Assembly (NCBI RefSeq): GCF_026672275.1
Contig: NZ_JANQCD010000038.1
Coordinates: forward strand, 1-43,171
DNA: 43,171 nucleotides
Source of the DNA: Marinifilum sp. D737
Lineage (GTDB): Bacteria > Bacteroidota > Bacteroidia > Bacteroidales > Marinifilaceae
Reading direction: 5' to 3'
Shown here: in pieces, positions 8,254-33,027 of the stretch
How the letters are laid out: every line of letters begins with the position of its first letter
Numbering within the stretch: the stretch's first letter is position 1
Made by a program: the position numbers and the translations under genes
The notes under the pieces: model-generated
What the model was told of the DNA's origin: nothing
Databases searched by the model: none
What the model saw: the letters and a program-made list of their open reading frames with translations, nothing else

Positions 8254-8610
8254 TTAAGCAGACTCTTCAATTTTCGTTTTGGTCGATTCGTCAACCGTGA
8301 AGCCCCAGCCACCCAATTTCTTTAAATCCTCTGGATAATGAGCCTTTAGAAGGTTACGGATTTGAATAATATCCTTTCTTACCGCTTTTGCTTCTTTGTT
8401 TTTCTGTTCATTCAATTCTTCTTTCAAACGATTCGCTTCATCAGCTTTTTGTTCATATTCCTGCATTTTAGCCAATCGTATTTGTAGAGAAGCAAAGTTT
8501 GGAAAATCTTTAAGTAGGCTTGATTCACCATCTGTGGTGTTTTTAGCGATGATCTTGCTAGCCAAATCAGCAAGTTCATGCACTTTCGATGAAATCTTAA
8601 CTCTTGACAT
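8254..8610 (-). CDS. Small charged coiled-coil protein of unknown function
   Basis: A 118-residue soluble protein without signal peptide or membrane segment. Residues about 45-85 form a predicted coiled coil rich in K, E and Q (MQEYEQKADEANRLKEELNE); the C-terminus carries a compact motif LGGWGFTVDESTK. I do not recognise a named family. It has its own strong terminator, its own ATG, and normal base composition for the region, so it is likely a real gene. Upstream of it, with no other gene in between, lie about 0.9 kb of repeats including the inverted 21-bp arrays, which makes a functional link worth testing. A DNA-binding or structural role would be speculation. Confidence 0.7.
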   Translation of the reverse strand: MSRVKISSKVHELADLASKIIAKNTTDGESSLLKDFPNFASLQIRLAKMQEYEQKADEANRLKEELNEQKNKEAKAVRKDIIQIRNLLKAHYPEDLKKLGGWGFTVDESTKTKIEESA

Positions 8611-8883
8611 ACAAATTTGTTTTAAAATAATTATTTATCCATTGTTAAATTAATAAAACTTACTCGTGGTAAGATCAGCTAAGCTGCTGAATTTCAAAAT
8701 TTATAATCGTTTTAAATAGTATGTTAAGTGGTAATGGGCTTGTGAATGGTCCTGTGTATTGTTAATGAGCCTGTAGATGGTAATGGTAATTTCTTTTGTA
8801 TTGCCTGATAATACAGGAAAATATAGTTTTATAGTAAGTTTTGTGAATGGGATGATTTACCATTAAATGATGAATTTTCAGCA

Positions 8884-9030
8884 CGAAGTATGTGAGATGT
8901 TACCAAGGGTGTATGTGATATAAACGTAGGAAAATATGAGCAGAACGTGGAAATATATGACGCTGACGCAGGAAAAACTCATCTGAACGTAGGAAAATAT
9001 GATCTGGACCCTAATTTTTGAGATGTTTTT
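8884..9030 (-). repeat. Block A of degenerate 21-bp repeats (about 7 units)
   Basis: Consecutive units of exactly 21 bp begin at 8884, 8905, 8926, 8947, 8968, 8989 and 9010. The clearest four are 8926-9009. On the minus strand the shared pattern is CTCAT, a T/A tract, TTTTCC, then TACGTTCA or a variant. Units differ at several positions but hold the 21-bp phase without indels. The outer units are weaker. On the plus strand the phase also gives an open frame of heptad-like units, but it lacks a start codon. Confidence 0.8.
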
Positions 9031-9042
9031 GTGGAATTGGAT

Positions 9043-9249
9043 GTCATTTTCCTACAAAAATATAATGCCAGGCTAGCCAAAATAGACAAAAAAATGCGTT
9101 GATGTGATTCCGACGCGCGTCAGGCTCATCTTTTCCCAGGTTTGGCTGATCTCAACGTGCGTTCAGCTCAAGTAAACCTGGGTCAGTGTCACATCTACCC
9201 AGGAACGGAACTCATTTATGCGCGTGGGGGAGAGTGTGACGCATGAAAG
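9043..9249 (+). repeat. Block B of degenerate 21-bp repeats, inverted to block A
   Basis: Units of 21 bp begin at 9103, 9124, 9145, 9166, 9187, 9208 and 9229, with a related unit near 9043 (TGTCATTTTCCTAC). The pattern on the plus strand, GCTCAT then TTTTCC or similar then a CCTGGGT/CGTTCA-like end, is the same as that of block A on the minus strand. The two blocks therefore face each other around about 9035. Confidence 0.75.
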
Positions 9250-9271
9250 TATCTTATAATTGCAGGAAAGA

Positions 9272-9297
9272 AAAGCCAAGTTTCACAGCTTGGCTTT
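9272..9297. terminator. Hairpin, possible bidirectional terminator
   Basis: Nine-bp perfect arms AAAGCCAAG and CTTGGCTTT around an eight-base loop, with A/T runs of three on either side. There is no obvious gene for it to terminate; it may close a transcript crossing the repeat blocks. Confidence 0.45.
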
Positions 9298-9413
9298 CAT
9301 ATCGTGCATGCAGTTTTAATTGTTCTTCTAGTGCATTTCTCCAATATCGTCCATATTGGGTTTATATTTCTCTGCTCATAAAAGGTAGCACATTACCCTT
9401 CCAATTGAGACTA

Positions 9414-9490
9414 AAAAGTCGCTGAGCGACGATAGTATGGTAGCCAATTTCATATGGTGTAGAAAAAGTACCATAGGTACGATATTGTCA
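9414..9490 (+). repeat. Pair of 13-bp palindromes with common flanks
   Basis: GTCGC-TGA-GCGAC at 9418-9430 and GTACC-ATA-GGTAC at 9468-9480. Both are preceded by AAAAA and followed by GATA(G)TAT-like sequence, and they lie 50 bp apart. The flanks are alike but the stems differ, and each stem stays fully paired. Confidence 0.75.
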
Positions 9491-9502
9491 TTTAGCAATA
9501 AA

Positions 9503-9530
9503 AAAGGCCTTGCAATTCTGCAAAGCCTTT
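9503..9530 (-). terminator. Intrinsic terminator of the DUF819 gene
   Basis: Arms AAAGGC-C-TTGCA and TGCAA-A-GCCTTT pair over 11 bp with one internal mismatch and a four-base loop ATTC; an A-run (9499-9505) gives a T-tract on the minus strand. It lies 26 bp past the stop codon. Confidence 0.8.
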
Positions 9531-9555
9531 CTTTATATATGGTTTATTGATATGT

Positions 9556-16833: not shown

Positions 16834-17388
16834 TTAAAGCACAATAATACTAACGTAATCTTTTAAATTTTTGCGAAATGCCTTTAATGCTTTTCCCATA
16901 TTGGCTTCAACAGTTTTTACCGATATGGAAAGTTTGTCAGCTATTTCTTGATATTTTAATCCTTCAAATCTACTCATTTTAAATATTTTACTGCATCTTT
17001 CTGGCAGATTTGATAGTGTGTTTTGTATAATGGTTTGAATTTCCTTTTCTTCCAGGCTATGATTTGTGGATGAATCGTTAATTCTGGTGTTTTTTAAATG
17101 ATCTTCGTATTGGTTTCTAATTCCTTTTTTTCTTAAGTGTTGCAAGCTGTTTAAGTAGGTTGCTTTGTACAAATAAGCTTTGAAAGAGGTATGAATTTTT
17201 AGTTTTTTTCTGTCTTCCCAGACCTGGCAAAACAGATTTTGAACAACTTCTTCTGCTTGATCAGGATTTTTGACAAATTTTACCGCATAATGACATAACA
17301 GTGGGTAATAAAACTTAAATAATTTTTCAAACTCTTCTATATTGCCTTTTTGAATGCTTAATAATATGGTGTTTGTATCTTCCGACAT
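16834..17388 (-). CDS. ECF sigma-70 factor, FecI-like (circuit 2)
   Basis: A 184-residue ECF sigma factor with region 2 (LFKFYYPLLCHYAVKFVKN, QAEEVVQNLFCQVWEDR) and region 4 (LPERCSKIFKMSRFEGLKYQEIADKLSISVKTVE). It is the first gene of a tight three-gene unit with FecR 2 and the STN protein. It is clearly related to the sigma factor of circuit 1 but differs in region 4, so the two probably read different promoters. Preceded by 225 bp containing inverted repeats. Confidence 0.92.
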   Translation of the reverse strand: MSEDTNTILLSIQKGNIEEFEKLFKFYYPLLCHYAVKFVKNPDQAEEVVQNLFCQVWEDRKKLKIHTSFKAYLYKATYLNSLQHLRKKGIRNQYEDHLKNTRINDSSTNHSLEEKEIQTIIQNTLSNLPERCSKIFKMSRFEGLKYQEIADKLSISVKTVEANMGKALKAFRKNLKDYVSIIVL

Positions 17389-32798: not shown

Positions 32799-32835
32799 TT
32801 TTTTGTAGTTTGATGAAGCTTGAAGATAAGGATAA

Positions 32836-33027
32836 AGTCTAATAGTACAACAGTTAAACTGTCTAAAAGTAGAACAGTCTAACCGTCCAATAGTCTAACC
32901 GTCCAATAGTCTAACCGTCCAATAGTCTTATGGTCCAACGGTCTAGTAGTTTAAGAGTTCAAAACATATTTAGCTTACAGAACTACTGGACAGTCGGACA
33001 GTCCGACAGTTTGACTTTGTGACTTTA
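32836..33027. repeat. Octamer-phased repeat array, 24 units
   Basis: From 32836 the sequence can be read as 24 consecutive 8-bp units with no indel, e.g. agtctaat, agtacaac, agttaaac, tgtctaaa, agtagaac. The centre has three exact 16-bp copies (32876-32891, 32892-32907, 32908-32923) made of agtctaac + cgtccaat. The right end turns to ggacagtc, ggacagtc, cgacagtt. It fills the whole gap between the reductase start and the phoR stop codon. Confidence 0.8.

Follow-up and report, generated by a model that had tools for sequence, protein, structure and literature searches.

Several described systems pair a small protein with repeated sites beside its own gene. Autoregulators of the Cro/C1 type (Pfam HTH_26) have a small helix-turn-helix (HTH) protein gene with upstream operators, few in number; in ParR-parC plasmid partition, a small protein sits on tandem repeats adjoining its own gene; plasmid iteron origins have repeats of about 21 bp adjoining the gene of the binding protein; and the repeats of the type III toxin-antitoxin system ToxIN are longer than 21 bp. 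Spacer-less repeat arrays are otherwise easily dismissed as minisatellites. Direct repeats of the heptamer TAACTGA, abundant and intergenic in Beggiatoaceae and some Bacteroidetes, often stand before genes, and excerpts of PMC4679880 propose them as regulator sites and place most copies in one genome within nucleotides of a start codon. Searches of open-licence PMC papers, which covered tandem repeats of 21 bp between genes, spacing by helical turns and repeats in Bacteroidetes, turned up no module of the kind considered below.

Here we analysed a stretch of 43,171 nucleotides from Marinifilum sp. D737 (the window), in which a 21-bp phased array lies upstream of the start of a gene for a 118-aa protein; arrays of the same step also lie upstream of two groups of small HTH protein genes (A8 and A9). 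The A8 and A9 groups, small HTH genes with presumed upstream sites, resemble the Cro/C1-type autoregulators, but known cases have few operators as against about ten or more phased units here and are not known to include many-copy co-diverging arrays, and the window protein has no HTH match. As in ParR-parC (ParMRC), tandem repeats adjoin a small-protein gene, whereas here no ParM or ParA ATPase gene is near the array, the contig is chromosomal, arrays occur without a gene, and no ribbon-helix-helix match was obtained. Repeats of about 21 bp beside the gene of a putative binding protein also recall the iteron origins, but no replication initiator (Rep) gene is among the neighbours of the window array, the nearest of which encode an ECF sigma factor and a DUF819 protein. 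With no ParA, ParM or Rep among these neighbours, a nucleoid or segregation site, once suggested for the array, finds no support at the locus. ToxIN, as excerpted from PMC8860590, likewise has a tandem array upstream of a small-protein gene, and differs from the present case in that the units here are of 21 bp, no ToxN-type endoribonuclease match was obtained and the sister modules contain HTH proteins. In the excerpts of PMC4679880 the TAACTGA repeat is a fixed heptamer, whereas the window-type arrays have a fixed 21-bp period and free sequence. No known system considered shares the full set of features: a two-turn step kept constant while the sequence is free, a position upstream of the genes of one non-HTH family and of two HTH groups but practically never downstream of them, and divergence together with the protein.

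An exact 21-bp period had been read from the sequence by eye, with shuffled sequence named as the control, and the period proved to be real: identity at lag 21 over positions 8884-9249 was 0.441, compared with 0.257 ± 0.023 in dinucleotide shuffles (0/2000 as high). The values for 8884-9015 and 9103-9249 were 0.532 and 0.460, each reached by 0/2000 shuffles, and the maximum over lags 8-60 attained the observed values in 0/500 shuffles. The initial annotation had described these two segments as head-to-head blocks. Instead, rows of 21 started at 8884 aligned in columns as a single unstranded array of about 18 in-phase units up to 9261 (family A), on the evidence of lag identity, unit rows, profile and a four-genome comparison; the last unit (9241-9261) was weak. 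The supposed gap at 9010-9102 consisted, in the row alignment, of more diverged units that keep the phase, and its conservation between species (0.887) equalled that of the rest of the array.

The second block on the plus strand does match the first on the minus strand, as had been noted, but this follows from the strand symmetry of the unit and does not make the blocks head-to-head. A 21-column profile built from 54 units of three loci (18, 17 and 19) correlated with its own reverse complement at r 0.888 at one register and at 0.22 or less at the other 20, indicating a nearly palindromic unit. Boxes WCSYRSGW and TSA take turns every 10.5 bp; the richest columns were C21, T12 and S13, followed by G5, Y2, R3, S4, W6 and A14, and by inspection both unit orientations were present in one register, which is what had been taken for head-to-head blocks. 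Such symmetry was not general, being found in 9/26 arrays at p<0.01 and in 3/25 of the HTH set at p<=0.01, with array ends for the 26 arrays, here and in the A/T-period comparison, picked by eye.

The array had been judged not to be a CRISPR, and its contiguous, degenerate units, without the unrelated spacers and near-identical repeats of that class, bear this out. Since 21 bp makes seven codons, the array could instead derive from a gene that once encoded heptapeptide repeats, and one frame is, by inspection, mostly open in the window copy and in a second copy on contig C42 (64-aa ORF). As no frame is open throughout 8884-9261, the unit is strand-symmetric and ortholog differences showed no bias by codon position (100/98/84 for six pairs and two loci together), this origin was rejected as having almost no probability. 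Intrinsically curved DNA with phased A-tracts, whose periodicity is treated in PMC3940949, was also set aside: a 10.5-bp signal in A/T content reached p<0.05 in just 3/26 arrays, and in the window array such a period beyond the 21-bp repetition was not significant (p 0.255).

The 118-aa protein gene (gene A; 8254-8610, minus strand) belongs to an unnamed helical family and is under purifying selection, with variable columns of 7/3/24 at codon positions 1/2/3, of 119 each. Between the gene and the array, genome comparison revealed a 33-bp run identical in four Marinifilum genomes (8696-8728, minus strand), which is probably the promoter or start region of the gene. From this run to the array edge extends a fast-evolving spacer (8731-8883, identity 0.744), and beyond the array, poorly conserved non-array intergenic DNA (9262-9555) reaches the DUF819 gene. 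In the four genomes, three array segments were 0.882, 0.887 and 0.892 identical with zero gap openings, the promoter-side stretch was 0.873 and gene A 0.95 identical, and the stretch 9250-9290 was 0.61 identical with 3 gap openings. Variability differed modestly among positions within the unit (permutation p 0.03); the larger contrasts in the ortholog-pair comparison count shared changes repeatedly.

The initial annotation had proposed looking for the unit elsewhere in the genome and in relatives, and a search with a unit model found the unit family at two further loci of the own genome. One of them (G000:C42:245003-245379) matched the window array over 377 bp at 75% identity with equal length on both sides, and is flanked by a hisS-like gene and by a gene whose small product resembles a membrane protein; the other, on contig C37 (L003, about 1249-1648), has a pabB/trpE-like gene on one side and, on the other, a gene whose small product resembles a lipoprotein (all names by inspection). 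The two arrays are upstream of the hisS-like and pabB/trpE-like genes, respectively. Across 57 genomes, a 66-column sequence-only model detected three arrays in the own genome (G000), two in M. flexuosum (G001) and three in Marinifilum sp. D714 (G002), where a fourth place matched at E 0.08 only; outside the genus the matches were weak, the best in G031 at 4.5e-4. The location of the window array is shared by M. flexuosum, Marinifilum sp. D714 and M. breve, in each of which gene A is also found. Presence in close relatives, as had been anticipated, thus held for these three and failed for two other Marinifilum genomes, G003 and G004, where no array match was found (G004 is 80% complete); array and gene A were both found in G000, G001 and G002, and neither was found in G003 or G004. 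The window and C42 arrays keep their positions in G001 and G002, no counterpart of the C37 array was found in G001, and the array of another locus, L114, was not in the same position in relatives. Between the own genome and G002, the C42 array was 0.833 identical and its flanks 0.75 and 0.748; between the own genome and G001, array identity was 0.958 and flank identities were 0.90 and 0.97, with no difference on one side.

The proposal that selection acts on the spacing of the units was supported in three ways: 366 bp remained free of indels in four genomes at 88-89% identity next to faster flanks, the 377-bp paralogue was gapless at 75% identity, and lags 21 and 42 were favoured among arrays of unrelated sequence. 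For this last point, intergenic DNA from 843 kb of the own genome and 1.2 Mb of four relatives was scanned at lags 10-60 in 210-bp windows, with thresholds of our own setting (z>6 or 6.5). The scan gave 32 arrays at z>6.5, of which 17 had lag 21 or 42 and 23 had lag 20-22 or 40-43, and no array in block-shuffled sequence (one shuffle per stretch, inside 60-bp blocks). The own-genome part comprised contiguous 20-kb stretches of long contigs (C42, C64 and C53) and the window, C42 and the window already being known to bear arrays, and intergenic meant outside ORFs of >=110 aa, so that some arrays may in fact be short genes (perhaps L140). Unit sequences varied from array to array. In G226, a more distant genome, 15 arrays were found in 400 kb, with lags 42 (7), 21 (3), 41 (2), 43, 14 and 51; G009 had two arrays, one of lag 21, and G048 had none. 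In 200 kb of E. coli, the only hit had lag 40 and lay in a tRNA cluster. A comparison of families A and B of Marinifilum for a shared unit grammar, with ends picked by eye, gave a best r of 0.43 (null 95% 0.38, 99% 0.46), which is insufficient for such a claim.

If the arrays were minisatellites, neutral or selfish, that slippage builds up preferentially in steps of 21 bp, their phase could persist simply because indels are less frequent than substitutions. Near-perfect 21-bp arrays occur beside degenerate ones (L006, L035 and L205), the length of the L068 array region varies between species, and the flanking intergenic DNA of the window locus also has few indels, as such an origin would have it. 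Nevertheless, the array changes more slowly than both flanks and without indels, its unit positions are unequally variable (the p of 0.03 above), and arrays have the strong one-sided association with genes described below; we therefore consider a neutral origin quite unlikely.

Several other repeats were observed. The window has a second intergenic array at 32832-32945 with 16-bp units (AGTCTAACCGTCCAAT), a period unlike the 21-bp class. L006 148-424 (G000:C86) is a near-perfect tandem array with some 13 copies of a 21-bp unit and may be a young member of the class; L012 2640-2960 (G000:C49) is a 42/43-bp array in which two 21-bp units alternate. In L032 900-1620 (G031:C219), 21/42/84-bp arrays with differing units stand back to back, followed by a 63-bp array, in a genome without a match to the 118-aa family profile A6. 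Beside an array in L103 (G000:C64), a 59-bp sequence at about 17190-17249 with many matches across four Marinifilum genomes forms a dispersed repeat of its own.

The window 118-aa protein had no Pfam or NCBIfam match below 0.001, and for its family neither a recognised DNA-binding domain or HTH nor an endoribonuclease match was found in Pfam, NCBIfam, PHROGs or PDB; a fold search gave nothing at E<=0.001 in PDB or BFVD. Matches to phrog_18778, which is of unknown function (window protein E 0.001, best 0.00097, 2/21 members), Takusan (0.00013, 1/21), the PQLLE family (8.5e-5, 3/21), GYDIA GHMP kinase (3.4e-4, 2/21) and the PDB coiled coils of apolipophorin-III and p85 (>=0.007) were set aside, being taken as coiled-coil resemblance. 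The AlphaFold model of the window protein was all-helical, with helices at 10-30, 39-91 and 96-102 (pLDDT 84.5, pTM 0.51), and the long helix was gap-free across the 21 sequences of alignment A6. In clade C, a set of short, well conserved Marinifilaceae paralogues, two predicted helices at 39-54 and 60-91 replace the single long one (pLDDT 85.8, pTM 0.75); this model has a short N-terminal strand followed by helices, an order reminiscent of a ribbon-helix-helix protein, with no sequence or fold match to that class, and single-chain models cannot show a dimer ribbon.

A profile search of 295 Bacteroidales genomes returned 21 family matches in 10 genomes, and the family spans 8 families of the order, that of the window included; since profile A6 matched the own genome alone in a phylum sample of 395 genomes, the family has so far been seen only in Bacteroidales. 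The profile is without three of the 20 homologues examined below (L197, L208 and L216) and without L162. A paralogue of gene A, 52% identical (gene B), lies beside arrays of the L068/L114 type (B-type) in G001, G002 and G003, and B-type arrays are kept in the own genome, in which no gene B was found. A mobile element was rejected as an explanation, as a plasmid match was absent for the window protein and a phage match for one remote member, and the window and C42 arrays keep their places in relatives, even though no such constancy was seen for the C37 and L114 arrays.

We then compared the surroundings of family genes. Among 20 remote homologues, 12 had a lag-21/42 array (z>6) within 600 bp upstream, with differing units, and one had an array downstream (L200). 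The background was 6/564, 10/282, 16/295, 1/271 and 2/130 genes (0.4-5.4%), counted in G000, G001, G009, G015 and G226 only, other homologue-bearing genomes being outside the count. G226 alone, which was picked for its family genes, had upstream arrays at 4/6 homologues and 16/295 genes; because its background within 1.5 kb on either side was 64/255, the test was limited to 600 bp upstream. The arrays mostly stop about 100-280 bp ahead of the start codon. For small ORFs (90-165 aa) in general, the counts were 3/101, 1/42 and 5/69 upstream, the last being for G226 and expected to include the three genes that led to the A8 group, and 2/114, 1/47 and 8/75 downstream; therefore, arrays as such favour neither side. 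All five Marinifilum gene A or B loci tested (the window, L164, L161, L162 and L163) had an upstream array. The remaining eight of the 20 homologues had none within 600 bp upstream: L200 is the locus with a downstream array, in L204 (z 5.0, weak), L214 and L216 the array was farther upstream, in L207 a contig end cuts the upstream region (z 4.4 in 229 bp), and L208, L209 and L210 had no array upstream. Likewise, an upstream array was found in 0/10 clade C loci (L208, L241-L249), one of which has a B-type array downstream. Read in frame, the arrays at L163 263-481 and L161 902-1207 give leucine-rich heptad ORFs; automatic annotation might mistake such arrays for genes of coiled-coil proteins.

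Comparison of the proteins flanking sampled arrays yielded two recurrent small-protein groups with an array upstream, A8 from three loci in G226 and A9 from one locus each in G001 and G015. The proteins match a Cro/C1-type HTH (PF13443), above the cut-off in 4/5 and below it in the fifth, and are, from this domain, likely to bind DNA; by sequence, the two groups may be distantly related. Relatives of A8 gave at least 51 matches in 15/295 genomes from 12 families, with up to 15 candidates scored per genome, a number reached in G226 and G311. Among the matches listed, 30 loci were examined, of which 23/28 testable ones had an upstream 21/42 array (20/25 without the three finding loci) and 0/30 a downstream array; L272 and L265 had too little upstream DNA to be tested, and two loci with lag 41 (L257 and L279) were scored as misses. 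Relatives of A9 in 7/57 genomes had an upstream array in 13/19 loci (11/17 without the two finding loci) and a downstream array in 0/19, these loci not being all independent since those of G002 and G003 closely resemble the G001 finding locus. The A8 group is expanded in some lineages, with at least 15 matches in G226 and at least 12 in G311, at part of which arrays were checked.

An array upstream of a small-protein gene is also the layout of an RNA-level module, in which a transcribed repeat leader or small RNA would bind the protein as in type III toxin-antitoxin systems, and the window array folds moderately better than expected, with z -2.08 on one strand and -2.10 on the other. However, an equal signal on both strands is expected of palindromic units, and symmetric arrays are alike on both strands; the units have diverged too far for identical processed RNAs, the 21/42 period is kept across unrelated sequences, and for the other linked proteins the match is to an HTH family that binds DNA. 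Rfam gave two hits in the window, both under the gathering score and outside the array. We regard action through RNA as very unlikely.

Proteins and units diverged together. For A8, protein identity and unit similarity were correlated over 25 loci, the two with lag 41 among them (Mantel r 0.43, 0/2000 permutations), and four loci from four bacterial families (L256, L258, L259 and L261), whose proteins share 66-80% in the first 90 columns, had unit correlations of 0.49-0.68, to be read beside the null 99% of 0.46, which comes from the family A/B comparison. The 118-aa family gave r 0.447 over 15 loci (0/2000), and 0.329 (6/2000) without the Marinifilum B pair. These correlations show linked descent of gene and array, which are inherited together, and recognition of the unit by the protein would be the simplest cause of the joint divergence.

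A common host protein, such as a nucleoid or silencing factor reading the two-turn period, might instead bind the arrays, with the regulator genes as frequent neighbours or tenants. Gene-less arrays outnumber gene-linked ones in our samples: 43 array hits had beside them one gene of the A6 type, that of the window, and five genes from the two HTH groups, where the remaining neighbours were compared among themselves rather than by Pfam and parts of one array may count twice. Moreover, only the period is common to many unrelated unit sequences, and G031 and G019 have 21-bp arrays with no A6 match at E<=1e-4. Against a general host factor stand the position of arrays upstream of three gene groups, with the downstream counts of 1/20, 0/30 and 0/19 given above, and the joint divergence of unit and protein. 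We consider such a factor unlikely.

The best reading is thus that of a cooperative protein-binding array, as the initial annotation had supposed, with the product of the adjacent gene as the candidate protein. Specifically, we favour, by a narrow balance of confidence over doubt, a two-part module whose cis half would be the phased array and whose trans half would be the small protein encoded just downstream of it. Protein dimers or rods would bind one unit per two helical turns, and with all contacts on one face of the DNA, binding would be cooperative and would hold the 21-bp step while the bases drift. Protein bound upstream of the promoter-like island (candidate 8696-8728) would control its own gene, and the dispersed family A arrays upstream of the hisS-like and pabB/trpE-like genes may be brought under the same protein or tied together. 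For the 118-aa family, DNA binding is suggested only by analogy with the HTH groups. Weighing against the module are the many sampled arrays without a neighbour gene, B-type arrays persisting in the own genome, where no gene B was found, the homologues and clade C loci without an upstream array, the minority of arrays with symmetry, the lack of a DNA-binding domain match in the family and the net charge of 0 or -1 in six of its 21 members. If only binding and autoregulation hold true, operator array would be the fairer label.

A bolder and decidedly tentative proposal, which we think more probably wrong than right, is that Bacteroidales chromosomes carry a class of such protein-array modules, each small-protein gene with its own upstream 21-bp phased array. 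Besides the two HTH groups, the class would include at least one family without an HTH, and some species would have a dozen or more modules in a genome in addition to many gene-less arrays. In the 118-aa family, the unbroken 53-residue helix would then be the ruler that builds a protein filament on DNA; its length is about 80 Å by arithmetic, compared with about 71 Å for 21 bp. Conservation of the step rather than of the sequence would follow from such a filament, and clade C combines a helix modelled as broken with the lack of an upstream array. A causal tie between the long helix and the array is speculation drawn from structural models.

In several families of Bacteroidales, small regulator-like genes are preceded by arrays that keep to a two-turn step whatever their sequence, and this brings to notice a 118-aa protein family without annotation. 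If the module is as proposed, a class of regulators and their sites would be predictable from DNA alone, and the array modules would offer a natural series of protein-site pairs for the study of how binding specificity evolves.
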